Positions 2,723-10,662 of a stretch of DNA of 25,410 nt are shown in pieces. Position 1 is the first letter of the stretch; each line of letters opens with the position of its first letter. This DNA is from a virus, in IMG/VR virus record IMGVR_UViG_3300030060_000611, positions 1 through 25,410 of that record; one strand, 5' to 3'. The position numbers and the translations under genes were made by a program. The notes beneath the pieces are model-generated. The model saw only the letters and a list, made by a program, of their open reading frames with translations. It was not told where the DNA came from and ran no database searches.

Positions 2723-3060
2723 GCTGTGTATCCTTCACTTACAAATATAGTACCTTCTAAATAATATTCTTTTAACCCTGCGGGATTAATTAATAAAAGA
2801 TCGTATTTTAATTCATTTGGAGTAAATGTAGCTGTCTGTGTATCTGTTAACGCTATAGAAATAGAACCAGAAGCACGATCAGTATAAGTAACAGCAAAAT
2901 CTGCATATTTTGTGGTGCGAGTTTCTTCCCAAACCTGTGCTTCTACTGTATAACCTGTTAAATTTATCGCTGCGTTATTACTATCTTTAAATAATAAAGG
3001 TATAGTATGATCTGCTCTTCTTTGAACAGTAAAATCATAGGTGGCGGGTTGAATTGCCAT
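2719..3060 (-). CDS. Tail appendage protein, BppU-N/Ig-like fold (113 aa)
   Basis: The 113-residue protein is a single beta-rich domain: TYDFTVQRRADHTIPLLFKD (7-26), INLTGYTVEAQVWEETRTTK (32-51), then a strand pair with ASGSISIALTDTQTATFTP and a C-terminal LKYDLLLINPAGLKEYYLEG. This resembles the N-terminal domain of baseplate or appendage proteins (BppU-type), where a polar-to-hydrophobic sequence with L-T-G-Y/V marks the fold. It probably links fibres to the tail tip. Its TGA overlaps the ATG of the large fibre gene (ATGA), so the two are likely made in balance. Confidence 0.75.
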   Translation of the reverse strand: MAIQPATYDFTVQRRADHTIPLLFKDSNNAAINLTGYTVEAQVWEETRTTKYADFAVTYTDRASGSISIALTDTQTATFTPNELKYDLLLINPAGLKEYYLEGTIFVSEGYTA

Positions 3061-3071
3061 AATAAACTACC

Positions 3072-3090
3072 AACTATCTTAAGGATAGCT
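3072..3090 (-). other. Small stem-loop between the fibre-like and next appendage gene
   Basis: On the minus strand, AGCTATC-CTTAA-GATAGTT can form a seven-pair stem (one G-U) that starts at the last base of the upstream stop codon. There is no T run after it, so it is not a convincing terminator. It could protect mRNA ends or affect translation of the next gene; A/T-rich chance pairing is also possible. Confidence 0.3.
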
Positions 3091-3899
3091 TATGTAACCT
3101 CAGTAAGATTAAATTTATATTTTTTACCACTAATTCTATTTATTAAAAACAAATCAGAAGCACCCTCCTGTATTGACCAACTGCCTTGGGTGCTATCGAC
3201 TTCATTAGGCAATGAGTTTAAATTAGACATATTAATATCTTGGGTTGTAACTGCTCCTTGCACCGTAATCCCATTCGCTGTGGTTTCACATTTTTTTGAT
3301 CCATTAAAAAATAAATGCTGTCCAGCATTTAAAAAAGCTTTATAAGCACTATCCTGACCAGAACTATCTTGTGTTTGTAGCAAAAAACATTCTTGTGCAG
3401 CGGTATTTGTTCTGGTTGTTAAAACTGTACGAGTATCAGTTAAAGCAGAAAAAAGATTTAAATCAATTTGATGAGCCATAGCAAAATCGTTGCCAGTTCC
3501 TATAATTATTTTTGTTTCATCTTTAAAAGCTAAAGCACCTCTACCTGTGGAATTATCAGCATCAAACGTAATATCAAAAGAACCACTTGAATCTGTTCCT
3601 TTAAAAACTACATCATTATAAAAATCACTTGGTTGATCTATAGAAAGACCCCCTGTTAATTTTGCAAGATTAAAATAGTTTGCAAGATTATTTTGACCAG
3701 AACTATCTTTATAAGAAAGTTTGCCAGTATTTGTATTAGCAAACCATTGATGATGATTTGCTGGTGGTATTGTAGTTCCAGAATTATTAGTTGCAATTGC
3801 TTGATATGTAGTATTTATTCTTGTTCTTACCTGTGCACCTGTACCGTCATCAATAACATAATTACCTTGACCGTTACTATCTATAGTATCTTGAGCCAT
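3090..3899 (-). CDS. Tail fibre-like structural protein (269 aa)
   Basis: The protein is Asn/Thr/Ser-rich with short beta strands and low charge, typical of fibres and appendages. The N-terminal 75 residues (GNYVIDDGTGAQVRTRINTT then NHHQWFANTNTGKLSYKD) look like an attachment domain. The middle carries DSSGSFDITFDADNSTGRGA. Residues about 201-222 (GSKKCETTANGITVQGAVTT) match the K-x-L-E-T-T-x-x-G-V-x-V-x-G module in the large fibre gene nearby. The C-terminal block (GSWSIQEGASDLFLINR, KKYKFNLTEV) is a compact end motif I associate with marine phage appendages. The leader is AT-rich without a strong ribosome site. Confidence 0.7.
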   Translation of the reverse strand: MAQDTIDSNGQGNYVIDDGTGAQVRTRINTTYQAIATNNSGTTIPPANHHQWFANTNTGKLSYKDSSGQNNLANYFNLAKLTGGLSIDQPSDFYNDVVFKGTDSSGSFDITFDADNSTGRGALAFKDETKIIIGTGNDFAMAHQIDLNLFSALTDTRTVLTTRTNTAAQECFLLQTQDSSGQDSAYKAFLNAGQHLFFNGSKKCETTANGITVQGAVTTQDINMSNLNSLPNEVDSTQGSWSIQEGASDLFLINRISGKKYKFNLTEVT

Positions 3900-3936: not shown

Positions 3937-6900
3937 TCAACTGCCACGCCCAAATCCTGTTGCAGTATATGTAAAAGTTCTATTTACATTGCTTGAACCA
4001 TTTTTTATGTCAATATCAAAACCTGTTCCAGAAATATTAGATAAAGTAAAGAAATCCCCTGACTGTGCATTTTCTATTGTTATAGCTATTGAGGGTAAAA
4101 CAGAATTAGCAGCAACACTTGTACCAGACTGACCAGTAAAAAAACTATTAGCGAATACTACAGATTTAGTAGATGTACCAGAAAAAATAATTCCATTTAG
4201 AGCCGTTGGACTTGTAAGACTTGTTTCTGTTCTACTTGCTAATTCTGCTGTGTATCCTAATTCTTTAATAGCTATTGTTTGTGCAGGGTCTAGTGTTTTC
4301 ATTTCAAGTTTAAATCTGAATCCTCTTGCAACAAATGAGCCTTTAACGAAAGGATTATATTGTGAAAAATCTGCAGAATAATTACAACTTCCACTTGTAG
4401 ATAAAGATGTTGCAGAAGTAAGTGTAAAAGTATCAGCTGTTTTAGAAATTATTTGGTAATCACCGTCAACACCTGTACCACTTGTAAAATCAACAGTAAT
4501 AAAACTACCAGCAGAATATCCGTGGGCAGTTTTTGTTATTGTTATTATTGTTCCAGCACTGCCAGATCCATTATTTATTGTATAAGGTGCTGTTGTTGAC
4601 GTATCTGGATCTAGGTCAGTTGTAGCAACAAGTAATTCTGCATCTACATCAGGTGCTTTTATTTGATCAAAACTTGTCCATGTGTCTATTAAGGCTGTTC
4701 TGTCATCAAAATCACTACTAGAATAAAATCCTTCAGTGATAATGTGTCTTTTTAAAATTAATGGTTGTTTACTACCTAAATCTAAAGTATTAGCAAATAA
4801 ATAACTGCCTGTCGTAGCGTTTAGAACCAAGCCACCTTTAGATATGCTAAATGCACAATTTGTTTTTGTTCCAGAAAAAGTAACACTGCCCGAATCTTCA
4901 CGGTCTACAAAAGCACTTAATTTAGGAAATGGATCTGGACTGTTATAAATAATTGAAGTTTCACCAGCACTTAACCTTCCACCATCATCTTTAAATTTAA
5001 CAATATATTCACCAGAGCCTATATTTGGAACATCTACTTCTGTGACATTACCACTAACTTCTTTTAATGTTGTAGCGTCACTAAATGTACCTGTTCCGTC
5101 AGTTACATTACTAGCTCTAACAACAATAGTTCCACCATGAATAACATCAACATCTGTAGATTTATTAAAACGTAATCTAACTAACTCATCTGAAATAGTT
5201 TCTATTTTTAAATTTTGTACATCACTTGGTACAGCAGTTTTGCCAACTGCATTAAAAGTAATTATAGATGGACTTGGACTTAATTTTCCTAAAGCATTAT
5301 ATGAGCTTATTGCAAACTCATAAGCTCCTTTTTCTGATTCAAAAAGTTCAAATGTAGGTTTTGCAACTCTTACTTTTTCAATATTATTATTATCAAGACG
5401 ATACTCGATTAAATATTCTTTAACACCTACTACTGGTTCCCAAGAAACATTAATAACAGAGACTGCTCTATTTTCTAGTACGACAATTTGTTCTGTTGCA
5501 ATTGCATTATTTGGTGCAAGTTTTTGATCTAATAACGTAGTTATTGATCTTGGGTTTGCAGCAACAGTTGTATCCTCTATTTGTGCATATTTGTTAGTGT
5601 CGTGAATGACAGCGGTAATAGTAAATTCTGATTCATTTTTTTCTTCTATAGAAACAACACGATATATCTGTAATTGAATAGCATTATTTGATATAGCATA
5701 AATAGAATTTATATTGGGAGTTTGTGAAAATGCAGAATTAATAGTTATAGTTTTACCAGTTACATCAGTAATTAAACGGTGTTGTGCTGTTCCATCTGGT
5801 AAAACAACGTGTAAATAAGCTGTTTGTTGATCTGTTAAATCTGTATTATCTTTATCATCTGCAATAATTTGGTTTATCACTCCATCTCCCTGACTATCAT
5901 TTACAGCACTTATACGACCCCCTCTTCTTGATCCAGACCTCACAGAATCTGCGATAGCAATTACTGTTGATGGTCTTACTATTACACCTGCTTCCAAAGT
6001 TGTTGTAAAAGAAACGGTTTCTGATTCTTTTAAATTTGAATATAAAAACCAACGACCCAATCTATTTGCTTGACCTCTAGAAGTACAGGCAAAGGCTTTT
6101 AAAGTTTTTCTTGTTCTACCAAATTTAGATATTGAATCAGATAAAGCTGGTATTTCATTAGTAGTAACTAATTCAAAATCAATTTCTTGTACACTATTAT
6201 CAAAAAAACCAACTTCAACTTCTGTATATTTTGTTTTTTGTCCTACACCTGAATAGTTAAAGCCTTCCTCTGTAACATTAGAATTGTTAAAAATGTATTG
6301 AGGGTCTGAAGTTTTTAGTAAAGCATTAGTAGGTCGGTCTTGTGATATTTGTAATGTGCCATTGCTATAGAAAGCCATTCCATTCATAACAGCACATAAA
6401 TCATTTATTAAAGAATATGCATCATTTTTTTGATTTAAAATTACATTGCAGCTAAATCGTGGTTCAGTAGTTTCTGTAATTGGATCTGTAATTAAAAAAC
6501 TAGAATAAACACTTGCAGCAAAAAAACTAAAAACATCTAAAGTATCTTCATCAACAACACCATTCTCCCCTCCAAAACCTTTTTCTGTAGTTAGCAAATC
6601 ATATAAAATCCATGCAGGGTCAGAACACCACTCTTTTTCGGCTTTGAATGTACCGTTAAATGTATAATTTATTGTACCGTCATCATTATATGGATAAATT
6701 ACACGCCCATTATTAGGATCTATAGTTATATCATGAGGCACTTTTATTTTTGTACCTTTTACTCGATACATTCTTCTTGGATAGCTTTGAAAAGATTGAG
6801 CATCAAATCTTAAAGCAATATATGCAAAACCTTGGTAAGCACTTGAATCAGTAGTTATTTCTGTAAGAGAATGAAAAAAAGTTTGATTAAATAATTTTTT

Positions 6901-7545
6901 TGGACTTTCATCTGGGGCATCATCAGTTATTCGATTTACAGTTATGGCAACTGGAAATTCCATACCTTTTTCAAAAATTATTTCAAAATCCTGTAAATAA
7001 GCTTCATTACTTTCGCCTTTTATAGGCCGTGGTTCTATAAGTGTAACGGTTCCATCTGCTTCAGTTATTGTTATTGAAATTTGTACTTCAGTACCGCCTG
7101 TTTTACCATTATTAAATACTTTTTTTAATAAAGGAATTTGTATTGTGACTCTGATTTTATCAACAAGATTATTGGAAATTTGTTTAGTGCTAGAAGCACT
7201 TTTTGTTATTTCTATTGGTGGATTAAATGTTTCAGTATTTTCTATTCCATTTATTTCTTTAATTGCTGTTTGATCCTCTGTTCCATTTTTCATAAAAACA
7301 TCAACATCTTCAAAATTTTCTACGCCATTAACATTTTGCAAAGGGGTGCCATCTAAAAAAATATTTTTTCTAAAATCATTTATTCCTATATTATCTTGCA
7401 ATACTCCTTCTATTTCTCCAAAACCCAATAAATCAACAACAGTTGCAAACTGCTTACTTCTTAAACCATCTTTAATTAACTCAGGATCAACTACCCTGTT
7501 ATCAGGTATTCCACCAAATAAATCATCAGAAACTAATTTAGGCAT
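3937..7545 (-). CDS. Tail tip/host-specificity protein, lambda gpJ-like
   Basis: This 1202-residue protein is the central tip protein that forms the tail hub and contacts the receptor. The N-terminal half (about 30-660) follows the gpJ hub: VVDLLGFGEIEGVLQDNIG, RMYRVKGTKIKVPHDI, then SDPAWILYDLLTTEKGFGGE (308-327) and LKAFACTSRGQANRLGRWFL (482-501). Fibronectin-III-like segments lie at about 692-765 (VSWEPVVGVKEYLIEYRLD) and 773-870. An HG module is inserted at about 990-1060. The C terminus (about 1110-1202) resembles the compact end domain found on many tail proteins, ending FDIDIKNGSSNVNRTFTYTA and GFGRGS, probably surface-exposed and receptor-facing. The gene follows I after nine bases. 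Confidence 0.92.
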   Translation of the reverse strand: MPKLVSDDLFGGIPDNRVVDPELIKDGLRSKQFATVVDLLGFGEIEGVLQDNIGINDFRKNIFLDGTPLQNVNGVENFEDVDVFMKNGTEDQTAIKEINGIENTETFNPPIEITKSASSTKQISNNLVDKIRVTIQIPLLKKVFNNGKTGGTEVQISITITEADGTVTLIEPRPIKGESNEAYLQDFEIIFEKGMEFPVAITVNRITDDAPDESPKKLFNQTFFHSLTEITTDSSAYQGFAYIALRFDAQSFQSYPRRMYRVKGTKIKVPHDITIDPNNGRVIYPYNDDGTINYTFNGTFKAEKEWCSDPAWILYDLLTTEKGFGGENGVVDEDTLDVFSFFAASVYSSFLITDPITETTEPRFSCNVILNQKNDAYSLINDLCAVMNGMAFYSNGTLQISQDRPTNALLKTSDPQYIFNNSNVTEEGFNYSGVGQKTKYTEVEVGFFDNSVQEIDFELVTTNEIPALSDSISKFGRTRKTLKAFACTSRGQANRLGRWFLYSNLKESETVSFTTTLEAGVIVRPSTVIAIADSVRSGSRRGGRISAVNDSQGDGVINQIIADDKDNTDLTDQQTAYLHVVLPDGTAQHRLITDVTGKTITINSAFSQTPNINSIYAISNNAIQLQIYRVVSIEEKNESEFTITAVIHDTNKYAQIEDTTVAANPRSITTLLDQKLAPNNAIATEQIVVLENRAVSVINVSWEPVVGVKEYLIEYRLDNNNIEKVRVAKPTFELFESEKGAYEFAISSYNALGKLSPSPSIITFNAVGKTAVPSDVQNLKIETISDELVRLRFNKSTDVDVIHGGTIVVRASNVTDGTGTFSDATTLKEVSGNVTEVDVPNIGSGEYIVKFKDDGGRLSAGETSIIYNSPDPFPKLSAFVDREDSGSVTFSGTKTNCAFSISKGGLVLNATTGSYLFANTLDLGSKQPLILKRHIITEGFYSSSDFDDRTALIDTWTSFDQIKAPDVDAELLVATTDLDPDTSTTAPYTINNGSGSAGTIITITKTAHGYSAGSFITVDFTSGTGVDGDYQIISKTADTFTLTSATSLSTSGSCNYSADFSQYNPFVKGSFVARGFRFKLEMKTLDPAQTIAIKELGYTAELASRTETSLTSPTALNGIIFSGTSTKSVVFANSFFTGQSGTSVAANSVLPSIAITIENAQSGDFFTLSNISGTGFDIDIKNGSSNVNRTFTYTATGFGRGS
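4366..4578 (-). repeat. HG-module, copy in the gpJ-like gene
   Basis: Protein residues about 990-1060: TIITITKTAHGYSAGSFITV (999-1018), DGDYQIISKTADTFTLTSAT (1027-1046), then a closing strand. It is the copy most like that in the gpL equivalent. It interrupts a region between a domain ending DLDPDTSTTAP and one starting FVARGFRFKL, both plausible continuous parts of one beta domain. Confidence 0.7.
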
Positions 7546-7554
7546 AATTTCATT

Positions 7555-8535
7555 TTAATAGGATCTTCCCAATTCATCTACATCATCTGGATGTATAGGA
7601 AAACTAAAGGTACCAACAGAATTGTAAATACGAACTTGTGGTGGATTATTATTAGAATCCCTATCAGTACTTTTGACAAGCGATATATTAGCAGGGAATG
7701 GAGAATCTTCTGCAAATATTTGTTCATCAAAAACAAAAAAATTATCGTTATCAACTTTAAAAATTGCATAAATTCTATCTGTAGCTTTATCTTTAAAATT
7801 AAGAAATTCTAACCCAACAAGATCATTTGTTTTAAATCCATGATTAGGGTTCGTTACTTTAATTGCAACTCCCTCAAGATTTATATTGTCAACACCCTGT
7901 CCACTTCTGAAATGTTTGATCCACGTAGCTGTAGCTGATGCCCTTCTTATTCTTGCACTATCTATTCCTGAGTTAATAACTATAGAGCCGCTATATACAA
8001 GTCCATACAAAATAGGTACTGGAACACCACTAGAACTGACATTCTGTATACTGTTAAACGAATAAGATCCTCTTATGTTTGGATCAATACCACTAACATC
8101 AGAGGTTGATGGAACAGGTTTTTGCGGAGCTATAAGATCAGTAATACCACCAATAACTAATGAAGTACCAATAGCAGTTAAACCTCCACCAAGAACAGTT
8201 CCAAGAAGAAAACCTCCTATACCTGTTGCAAATGCACCAGTAAGTGCTGAACCACCAGCAAGTGCACCAATACCAAGAACTACAGGCAATGACCCAGTTG
8301 CTACAGGAATAATTTGTATATCTCCTTCCCCAGACATAGATAAATATTCTTCTGTTACTACTTTTCCACCTAGTTTTACTTTATAAATTTGTTCATTCAT
8401 ATGTTTTTGCACGCCTTCAAAATTTGCTGTTAAAAAACTAACAGCTTCTTTTGGAGATTTTACAGCAGCTTCAAAATATGACCTTCCTAGAAATAGCCTT
8501 AAATTACCATATACCCTTATTTTTTTAAGTTGCAT
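7555..8535 (-). CDS. Tail assembly protein, lambda gpI-like, with inserted HG module
   Basis: The N-terminal 80 residues look like the ubiquitin/beta-grasp domain of gpI proteins: KKIRVYGNLRLFLG, a helix, YKVKLGGKVVTEEYLSM and IQIIPVATGS. A Gly/Ala-rich hydrophobic hairpin follows (81-135), then SYSFNSIQNVSSSGVPVPIL (157-176) and YSGSIVINSGID, the usual gpI C-terminal pattern. Residues about 215-293 form another inserted HG module (VAIKVTNPNHGF at 223-234, then DRIYAIFKVDNDNFFVFD). At 326 residues it is longer than lambda gpI. It pairs with the JAMM-bearing K gene upstream, with which it overlaps, and precedes J. Confidence 0.85.
   Translation of the reverse strand: MQLKKIRVYGNLRLFLGRSYFEAAVKSPKEAVSFLTANFEGVQKHMNEQIYKVKLGGKVVTEEYLSMSGEGDIQIIPVATGSLPVVLGIGALAGGSALTGAFATGIGGFLLGTVLGGGLTAIGTSLVIGGITDLIAPQKPVPSTSDVSGIDPNIRGSYSFNSIQNVSSSGVPVPILYGLVYSGSIVINSGIDSARIRRASATATWIKHFRSGQGVDNINLEGVAIKVTNPNHGFKTNDLVGLEFLNFKDKATDRIYAIFKVDNDNFFVFDEQIFAEDSPFPANISLVKSTDRDSNNNPPQVRIYNSVGTFSFPIHPDDVDELGRSY
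7657..7893 (-). repeat. HG-module, copy in the gpI-like gene
   Basis: Protein residues about 215-293: GVAIKVTNPNHGFKTNDLVG, then DRIYAIFKVDNDNFFVFDEQ. It shares the H-G-F turn, the D-x-x-Y-x-I strand and the aromatic F-x-V strand with the other copies, but is more charged and diverged. It sits after the GID segment near the C terminus. Confidence 0.55.
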
Positions 8536-9232
8536 ATCTATATACTCCTTTTAATGCTTGTTGGTACCTTAAATCAAAAGGTTCTCTACAACTTAATTTT
8601 TTTATATTATGATTCAATATCATGTTATCGCCTATAAAAACAGCAACATGATCTAAATTTCCAGTGACTGATTGAAACAGTAATACATCACCAATTTTTA
8701 TATCTTTTATTGTAGGTAGTTTTTTAAAATTTAATTTAGGTAAAGCAAATTCAAATTCTGGATCATTTAAAAAGTCTTTTATTTTTTTTGGCCGTTCCCA
8801 AAATTTAATATTTATGTTTTTTGTTTCTTTGTACCAATCAGTTACTATTGACCAACAATCATATTTTCCCCATATAAATTCACGACCTATTAATGTAGGA
8901 GACTTCCAACCGCTTGGTTCAAAATTTACCCATTCGTCGTTTTCAATACTATAAATAAAATATGGAAAACCAAGATGCTCACAAGCCGCTTTATCTGTAT
9001 CAGAAGGCGTTGCAGTACCTACAGGGTGACTATGTATTACACCAATAACTTCTCCTGTATCTTCACATTCCGCCCAATCATCAGGATCAAGTATAAAAAA
9101 TTCAAACTTACCTTCTGCTAAATTTTTACAAGGCCAAAACTGTTTTTTCCCTTTTATTATTGCTAATAAACCACACGCTTCATCTGGTGCTTGTTGCTTT
9201 GCATAAGTTATAAAAGATTCTTTCCAAGTCAT
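8525..9232 (-). CDS. Tail assembly protein, lambda gpK-like (JAMM peptidase and NlpC/P60)
   Basis: The 235-residue protein has two enzymatic domains. The N-terminal JAMM/MPN domain (1-100) shows E18, the HSHP motif (H67, H69) and S77-x-x-D80, a full zinc set. The NlpC/P60 domain (about 112-235) shows C126 in YDCWSIVTDWY, H195 in DHVAVFIG and H208, a complete catalytic triad. In lambda-type tails this protein acts at tip assembly; the JAMM domain is thought to process the ubiquitin-like gpI, and the NlpC part may cut peptidoglycan at entry. The gene overlaps the I gene by 11 bases. Both active sites appear intact. Confidence 0.93.
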   Translation of the reverse strand: MTWKESFITYAKQQAPDEACGLLAIIKGKKQFWPCKNLAEGKFEFFILDPDDWAECEDTGEVIGVIHSHPVGTATPSDTDKAACEHLGFPYFIYSIENDEWVNFEPSGWKSPTLIGREFIWGKYDCWSIVTDWYKETKNINIKFWERPKKIKDFLNDPEFEFALPKLNFKKLPTIKDIKIGDVLLFQSVTGNLDHVAVFIGDNMILNHNIKKLSCREPFDLRYQQALKGVYRYAT

Positions 9233-9234
9233 GT

Positions 9235-10059
9235 TTAAAAATTAACAAATCTGCCGACACCTGCAAAATCAGTTTTCGTTACAAGTTTACTTGGTGCGTC
9301 AACACCAAACAAGTCAAAAGAACCTACAAGCTCAAATTGAACAATATTTCTATTTTCTAAAACTTTTCTTTCTATGCTATAAATTTCTCTTGGCAGTTCA
9401 GATGATGGATCAACCGATCCAATTTTGAATGGATTAATATTAGATGGAAAATTAACCTCATCAAGGTTTTGAGTTAGAGTTTTTCTCCTTGTAACTTTTG
9501 CGTGTGCCAAATCAGATAGTGAAGTAGTTTGATTTGTCAGTTGCAATATTGTAGAAATTGTACCTAATAAATTAGAAAGAGTTAATGTTGGTCTTGGTAG
9601 CTTTCCTTTGCCAGAATATTTATATCCTTCTGCTTTACAAGGTAATCTTGAATATGTGTTTGATTGCCAAACAACATCAAAGCTATCTTTCATATTATTA
9701 CCACTATGAAAAAGGTAGACAGTAGGATCAGCTATTGTTGAATTTACATTAAAAGTAACATTGTGAGTACCAGTTATTGTTGCAGAATTAATAGCTGTAA
9801 CTGTAAAAGTATTTGTAGCAACTGTTTGTATTGTATAAATTCCATCAATAGCACCACCAGTAGCAAACTTTAAACTTAAAATTAATCCCGCAGAAAAGCC
9901 ATGTGAATTTAAAGTTATAGTTATTGTTGTACCACTTTGTACATATTGGCCTGTCTTAGCAACTTTTGTATAGTGTATATCAGGTTTTAATTCAACTGAA
10001 AAAAATTCAAGTATTGATTTTGATTCTAGTTTTTGTAGTTCAGAGGTGGGGTTAGTCAT
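9235..10059 (-). CDS. Minor tail protein, lambda gpL-like, with inserted HG module
   Basis: This tail-tip hub protein (274 residues) has gpL-like landmarks: ELQKLESKSILEFFSVELKP at the N terminus, then KLPRPTLTLSN (153-163), ARKT-like RRKTLTQNLDEVNF (191-204), and LPREIYSIERKVLENRNIVQ (222-241), where gpL proteins have their conserved P-x-E-x-Y-x-I-x-R-K and E-N motif. Residues about 37-107 are an inserted HG module (TTITITLNSHGFSAG). The family's C-terminal Cys cluster, which binds an Fe-S centre in lambda, is absent: the protein ends shortly after LFGVDAPSKL, with one Cys overall (C141). Two bases separate it from the K gene. Confidence 0.85.
   Translation of the reverse strand: MTNPTSELQKLESKSILEFFSVELKPDIHYTKVAKTGQYVQSGTTITITLNSHGFSAGLILSLKFATGGAIDGIYTIQTVATNTFTVTAINSATITGTHNVTFNVNSTIADPTVYLFHSGNNMKDSFDVVWQSNTYSRLPCKAEGYKYSGKGKLPRPTLTLSNLLGTISTILQLTNQTTSLSDLAHAKVTRRKTLTQNLDEVNFPSNINPFKIGSVDPSSELPREIYSIERKVLENRNIVQFELVGSFDLFGVDAPSKLVTKTDFAGVGRFVNF
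9739..9951 (-). repeat. HG-module, copy in the gpL-like gene
   Basis: Protein residues about 37-107: TTITITLNSHGFSAGLILSL, then GGAIDGIYTIQTVATNTFTV and a closing strand. It is inserted after the N-terminal helix and before the first recognisable gpL strand. Alignment by eye with the J-gene copy matches ITIT-x-x-x-HG-(F/Y)-SAG, DG-x-Y-x-I and T-F-T-(V/L)-T. Confidence 0.7.
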
Positions 10060-10662
10060 TTAAGGTTCAAAAACTTCACGAAAAGTACAATTAATTATTG
10101 CTCTGTTTAAAAAAGGAATTGTTTTTGTCCACCTGTCGCAAACATATTTGCCAGCCCCAGACAGTGAAAAAGTTATAGAAGTCTGGCTAGTAACATGTGC
10201 GGCATCAGTAGAAAGTGAATTTATTGTAAATGTGTTTTGGTTTGTAGAAGTTTTAACAGCATAATCAATATTGTTAGTAAGACTACCACTATTTGCAGTG
10301 ACTGTAAGTGTGTCTCCTAAAGCCACTCCATGATTAGCAGCGGTAACAGTGACTATCACACCCGAAGCTCCGCTTCCGTTGGATTGTATAAATGTGCCTG
10401 ACTTGTTGGTAAATCCTTCTGCTGGTGGAGTAAAAGTAAAGCTTGCCTGATCTGCCACTCTGCTTCTTAAAAACGCTTCAATGACATCTGATTCGGTTTC
10501 AGACACGTTAAAAGTTAAATTATATACTTTAGGATCTTGAGATAAAGGCAAGCCATACAATGCCCTAAACTCATAACCATCTCCGAGTTGTGTAACCCTT
10601 ATTTTTGGTTTACTTGTTTTTCTTGTGCCATAAGTTGGCTGTATTGATGGAAATGTAGCCAT
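10060..10662 (-). CDS. Minor tail protein, lambda gpM-like, with inserted HG module
   Basis: This is a tail-tip assembly protein. Lambda gpM is about half this length. The family core is split: residues 1-82 carry KPKIRVTQLGDGYEFRALYG (18-37) and end at the SFTFTPP turn, and residues 171-200 resume with KYVCDRWTKTIPFLNRAIIN, the expected W-containing end strand. Between them, residues about 86-168 are an inserted beta-rich segment with V-x-V-T-x-x-N-H-G-V (102-112), GDTLTV and TFTINSLS. Related segments occur in the L, I and J equivalents. The gene is joined to the tape measure by TAATG and abuts the L gene directly. Confidence 0.85.
   Translation of the reverse strand: MATFPSIQPTYGTRKTSKPKIRVTQLGDGYEFRALYGLPLSQDPKVYNLTFNVSETESDVIEAFLRSRVADQASFTFTPPAEGFTNKSGTFIQSNGSGASGVIVTVTAANHGVALGDTLTVTANSGSLTNNIDYAVKTSTNQNTFTINSLSTDAAHVTSQTSITFSLSGAGKYVCDRWTKTIPFLNRAIINCTFREVFEP
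10159..10407 (-). repeat. HG-module, copy in the gpM-like gene
   Basis: The inserted beta-rich segment (protein residues about 86-168) between the FTPP turn and the final strand of the gpM fold. Key positions are VIVTVTAANHG (102-112), GDTLTV, and NTFTINSL. It resembles the modules in the next tail genes in spacing and strand pattern, but is the most divergent at the HG site (HGV rather than HGF/HGY). Confidence 0.6.

Follow-up and report, generated by a model that had tools for sequence, protein, structure and literature searches.

In the virion of phage lambda, the tail tip is made of six copies of M and three each of L, I and J, and gpK is not found in the particle (PMC10721106). The plug, and with it most of the resolved part of gpI, lies in the lumen of the tube, and the strands that follow the plug thread through gaps in the gpJ hub (PMC11101478). 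In lactococcal phages, carbohydrate-binding modules (CBMs) decorate Dit as well as neck and tail proteins, with binding to the host seen for two of them (PMC6669499), and host binding by CBM insertions is described for Dit, Tal, neck and tail proteins (PMC6669499, PMC7291167). For the Ig-like and FNIII decorations of phage virion proteins, weak binding to surface carbohydrates has been proposed (Fraser et al. 2006, as cited in PMC10721106). Finally, the beta-barrel of the K1F endosialidase carries a non-catalytic sialic-acid site, apart from the active site, that is a hotspot of host discrimination (PMC12632334).

The window analyzed here, IMGVR_UViG_3300030060_000611, is a viral contig of 25.4 kb whose head region is ~75% identical in nucleotide sequence to the Prochlorococcus phages MED4-184/P-HS2, counting aligned pieces only. 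Its tail genes all lie on the minus strand, in the order tape measure, M, L, K, I, J, and the M-L-K-I-J order with lambda homologues marks a lambda-type tail tip. The tip genes and the modules found in them are as follows:

10060-10662, minus strand: M gene, distal tail (Dit-like) protein, 200 aa (Pfam/PHROGs; match to lambda gpM, 8iyk, 4.7e-14)
10153..10416, minus strand: HG barrel module of M, covering residues ~83-170; the FTPP turn lies on one side of it and the final W-strand on the other (profile E 7e-15)
9235-10059, minus strand: L gene, hub protein, 274 aa (Pfam)
9733..9957, minus strand: HG barrel module of L, covering residues ~35-109, within the N-terminal domain's first hairpin (profile E 4e-21)
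8525-9232, minus strand: K gene, JAB + NlpC/P60 protein, module-free
7555-8535, minus strand: I gene, tail assembly/plug protein, 326 aa (PHROGs)
7648..7914, minus strand: HG barrel module of I, a diverged copy covering residues ~208-296, following the conserved core on its C-terminal side (E 1e-5)
3937-7545, minus strand: J gene, central tail fibre/tip attachment protein, 1202 aa (Pfam/PHROGs)
4363..4590, minus strand: HG barrel module of J, covering residues ~986-1061, flanked by the conserved segments LLVATTDLDP and GSFVARGFRFK (profile E 1e-21)

The module is a domain of ~75 residues, present once in each of the four proteins, with an invariant H and near-invariant G, G, G and F. An earlier note, made from this sequence alone, had proposed one beta-rich HG module in four consecutive tip proteins (M 86-168, L 37-107, I 215-293, J 990-1060), and the HG turns indeed fall inside all four ranges, at residues 111, 53, 232 and 1008, respectively. 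Its description of M also holds up: the protein is about twice as long as that of lambda (200 aa versus 109 aa), and comparison with relatives reveals that the module splits the FTPP turn from the final W-strand. None of the window genes other than M, L, I and J contains a module copy, and a profile-profile comparison of K with L gave no match, in line with the proposed absence of the segment from K. The module-bearing genes thus coincide with the set that forms lambda's virion tip, and the module-free K with the protein that is absent from the lambda virion.

Two features of the tip genes lie apart from the module. Lambda gpL has an Fe-S domain with four cysteines at its C-terminus, which the window L gene lacks; among complete L relatives, just 2 of 137 have at least four cysteines within the last 90 residues, and the L gene of L147 retains the cysteines in a longer form. 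In MED4-184 (L001:10142-11110), K and I are fused into a protein of 322 aa, from which the NlpC/P60 half of K is apparently missing.

Evidence for the homology of the four copies comes from single-sequence, profile and profile-profile comparisons. When single sequences were searched against the 23 proteins of the window, J hit L (6e-11) and M (6e-8), and M hit J (1e-6); the pair scores of M-L, M-J, L-J and L-I were reached by none of 2000 shuffles. Taken singly, the I copy is weaker, with the M-I score reached by 6 and the I-J score by 1 of 2000 shuffles. A profile of L and M, however, finds I at 4e-6, as the top non-member besides J and with the next protein at 0.016, and a deep profile of relatives from which the window I copy had been left out recovers that copy at ~1e-5 (2939-3557 ORFs). 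Profile against profile, the E-values are 2.5e-23 for L-M, 4e-26 for L-J and 8e-24 for M-J, and the I copies of relatives match L at 1.5e-13 and M at 2e-13; the window I copy alone matches the L profile at 1.7e-4, with a probability of 50%. It is strongly diverged, with a branch length of 5 in the module tree, and has clear homologues in relatives (L007 and L164-L166 among others). Judged by these comparisons, homology is beyond doubt for the copies in M, L and J; the I copy of the window is the weakest link, although its relatives are clear.

Could the likeness nevertheless reflect chance or convergence among beta-rich segments rich in T, S and G? The composition of the modules is biased and the window I copy scores low in single-sequence comparison, as such an explanation would have it. 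Yet reversed and shuffled ORFs searched with the deep module profile gave no match below an E-value of 0.15, the profile-profile E-values range from 1e-13 to 1e-26, the structure models of I and M hit the same folds, and the module is cleanly present or absent among relatives. For the M, L and J copies, the homology evidence rules chance resemblance out, and for the set of four we consider it very improbable.

Module matches among 3557 ORFs all lie in M, L, I or J genes or in cut-off pieces of M. In searches that were seeded with M and L, and that do not give unbiased frequencies, the module is present in 102 of 136 relatives of M, 33 of 149 of L, 8 of 117 of I and none of 140 of K, as well as in 60 of 74 long copies of J. 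Its presence is reflected in protein length: M measures ~115 aa without and 188 aa with the module, L 192 and 271 aa, and I ~205 and ~280 aa. Sister M genes with 85% nucleotide identity differ by an in-frame insertion of 219 bp, and sister I genes with 86% identity by an addition of 249 bp at the C-terminus. For L and J, the insertion is seen by protein alignment with module-free relatives, which in J show a gap inside a conserved stretch; further insertion sites exist elsewhere in J. All four genes therefore have relatives with and without the segment, and in none is it an inseparable part of the host protein family. At the level of genomes, P-HS2 has a module in just M and J, S-H1 lacks it in all of these genes, and the single-cell virus AG-345-A17 has none in M, L or I; a profile that included the window and P-HS2 copies, and was biased by them, brought up no further copies that stood out. 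L modules always occur in genomes with an M module, where the M sequence is covered, and all I modules of the counted set occur in genomes carrying an L module. M and J modules are found together in 52 genomes, are both absent from 8, and are mixed in 6.

The module is a six-stranded beta-barrel, homologous to the endosialidase beta-barrel (PF12195) and similar in fold to the FCCH domain of ubiquitin E1. The Pfam family End_beta_barrel (PF12195) is matched by 48 of 60 module copies (best 6e-11), and its curated cut-off of 35 bits is exceeded by modules of relatives, such as those in M of L016 (36.7 bits) and J of L122 (38.5 bits). The window copies lie below this cut-off, with 18.6 bits for J and no match for L, M and I; they belong to PF12195 through a chain of homology rather than by their own scores. 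The L copy by itself had no match in the PDB; matches came only with the 60-copy profile, for which the best were the endosialidases of phages phi92 and K1F (E-values of 2.4e-5 and 2.5e-4).

AF2 models were built for M, from an alignment without rows from phage records, and for the I tail, from an alignment guided by L modules, so that the I model partly depends on the assumption of homology. The M model has a mean pLDDT of 82 and the I-tail model, of moderate confidence, one of 60.5, with 63-84 across most module blocks. Both have a common strand order, and Foldseek matches the I model to 4hiz, 3gvk and 3ju4 and the M model to 4hiz, 3ju4, 3gvk and 1v0e. UBA1/UBA6 are among the top matches of both; the endosialidase and FCCH matches mostly have probabilities of 0.85-0.99, with weak E-values (0.01-0.2). 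The agreement of the I and M models in strand order and PDB folds is what a shared module predicts, and different folds are not seen in this pair. The FCCH likeness suspected in the earlier note is borne out for the fold, through UBA1/UBA6, but not for the sequence: E1 FCCH (PF16190) is hit by 3 of 60 copies (best 8e-4), with a best score of 19.9 bits against a curated cut-off of 29.5. An Ig-like fold was set aside, the best structural matches being barrels and not Ig sandwiches.

We next consider how the copies arose. On the K tree, the fewest state changes are 8 for M, 3 for L, 7 for I and 10 for J, with the L modules kept throughout one clade. The modules group by host gene, with 8 label changes compared to a mean of 39 after shuffling, so acquisition events were few for each gene and the copies have since been passed down with it. 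On present data, the history is one of serial acquisition with inheritance thereafter, and not ongoing spread. The only signs of later movement are two M-type copies at new J sites, near residue 305 in L024 and near residue 929 in L134, which suggest rare copying between genes. The idea of a spreading domain hence stands insofar as the same removable domain has been added to four different proteins, but gene-wise inheritance argues against free spread at present.

Several modules differ at their N-terminal edge, where they read S/N-N/D-GSGxAGxIIT instead of GTYxQSGTTIT (window M at ~94 and J at ~991; M and L of L006, L012 and L176; J of L028 and L173), possibly from partial exchange among the modules of one genome. 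Other additions occur in the same proteins. Two L genes (L003:7418-8407 and L083:711-1688) carry a different insertion of ~130 aa at a different site, without a Pfam match, whose H...C..H....M pattern (HPL...YYCSTHGNSMG) is like a cupredoxin copper site. In the I genes L153:3356-4495 and L158:1967-3151, glycine-rich repeats (GGTGYSQxPSI...GGTGFTSPPTI) precede the HG module, and the C-terminal end of I seems to be a place that accepts accessory domains.

What might the modules do? Taking their location in the virion from lambda, the modules of M, L, I and J would lie on the outside of the tip, in about 15 copies per particle at the stoichiometry M6 L3 I3 J3. For I, with the post-plug strands threading through the gpJ hub, an extension at the C-terminus may emerge on the outside. 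The role of the K1F barrel and the host binding of lactococcal CBMs favour weak multivalent binding, and the modules would most likely contact a host-surface glycan and hold the particle near the cell until J engages its receptor. The ligand is probably other than sialic acid. Residues S460 and S468 of the K1F barrel site (PMC12632334), numbered here to match the distance between the two serines, correspond to positions that hold Asp in 45 of 60 and 49 of 60 modules, respectively; K1F-type sialic-acid binding was set aside because these positions are mostly Asp, and sialic acid is accordingly an unlikely ligand as far as residue alignment can tell. By analogy, we give an even chance to the modules being a barrel form of the known "evolved Dit/Tal" decoration that makes weak multivalent contact with host-surface glycans. 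More tentatively, one domain may have been recruited stepwise into every virion component of the tip, yielding a distributed low-affinity adhesin in which the ~15 copies of a repurposed endosialidase-type barrel would act on marine, probably cyanobacterial, surfaces. To our knowledge, the phage receptors on such surfaces are mostly unknown.

Two other explanations do without host binding. The modules could be structural staples or spacers that pack together or on their neighbours and stabilize or enlarge the tip, given that the module-bearing subunits touch one another in the lambda tip, that M and J modules mostly co-occur, and that a module carried by the P-SSP2 major capsid protein could be a stabilizer. 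However, the module varies freely among close relatives and most L and I genes lack it, so that no fixed contact between modules is needed, and the few contrasts among independent pairs do not show co-gain in M and J; we therefore regard staples as unlikely. Near-neutral accretion, in which loops of the tip tolerate a compact barrel that is swapped by recombination and has little function of its own, would account for the repeated state changes in M, I and J, for the multiple insertion sites in J and for the unrelated insertions in the same proteins. Neutral insertions should decay, though, and the conservation of the modules counts against this explanation, as do their gene-wise inheritance across large divergence and the persistence of the L modules through one clade; it strikes us as rather improbable.

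The finding carries the idea of the "evolved Dit" from the phages of lactic acid bacteria to marine lambda-type phages, and offers a testable candidate for the first grip on the cell by relatives of Prochlorococcus siphoviruses. Natural pairs with and without the module are available for each of M, L, I and J. In addition, the agreement with lambda, where the products of the module-bearing genes are the ones that form the virion tip, hints at an easy way of distinguishing tip components and assembly factors by sequence.

Literature searches that covered few subscription journals turned up no previous account of the module in tail tips. The same module occurs elsewhere, in tailspikes, fibres, a baseplate wedge protein and capsid proteins. 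An example is the major capsid protein of cyanophage P-SSP2 (L186:643-1953), which has an inserted barrel module scoring 36.4 bits against the PF12195 cut-off of 35; P-SSP3 is likewise equipped, and both are podovirus-type cyanophages. With the endosialidase barrel (PF12195; K1F endoNF, 1v0e/3gvj, and phi92, 4hiz), the modules share sequence homology, the HG-x3-G turn and the model fold, but they are located inside tail-tip proteins, without any enzyme. They share the fold of ubiquitin-E1 FCCH (PF16190), with weak sequence similarity. The distal tail protein pb9 of T5 also combines a ring domain with a small barrel, an OB-fold, and the M model matches no PDB entries better than 7qg9 (T5 pb9) and 8hqz (DT57C), at E-values of 3e-7 and 5.5e-6; no sequence match to the module was found in this case, however, and the barrel types may differ. 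As in the Ig-like/FNIII decorations, a small beta domain has been added to many virion proteins, yet the best structural matches are barrels. The closest parallel is the evolved Dit/Tal of lactobacillus, lactococcal and streptococcal phages, where small beta domains likewise occupy loops, are variably lacking in relatives and decorate several virion proteins of one phage, and the defining arrangement, in which a loop of Dit or Tal houses an extra domain that relatives lack, is found here as well. There, however, the domain has a BppA-type CBM fold and the hosts are Gram-positive; here, a different domain, a single kind of barrel, is carried by all four tip proteins, M, L, I and J.
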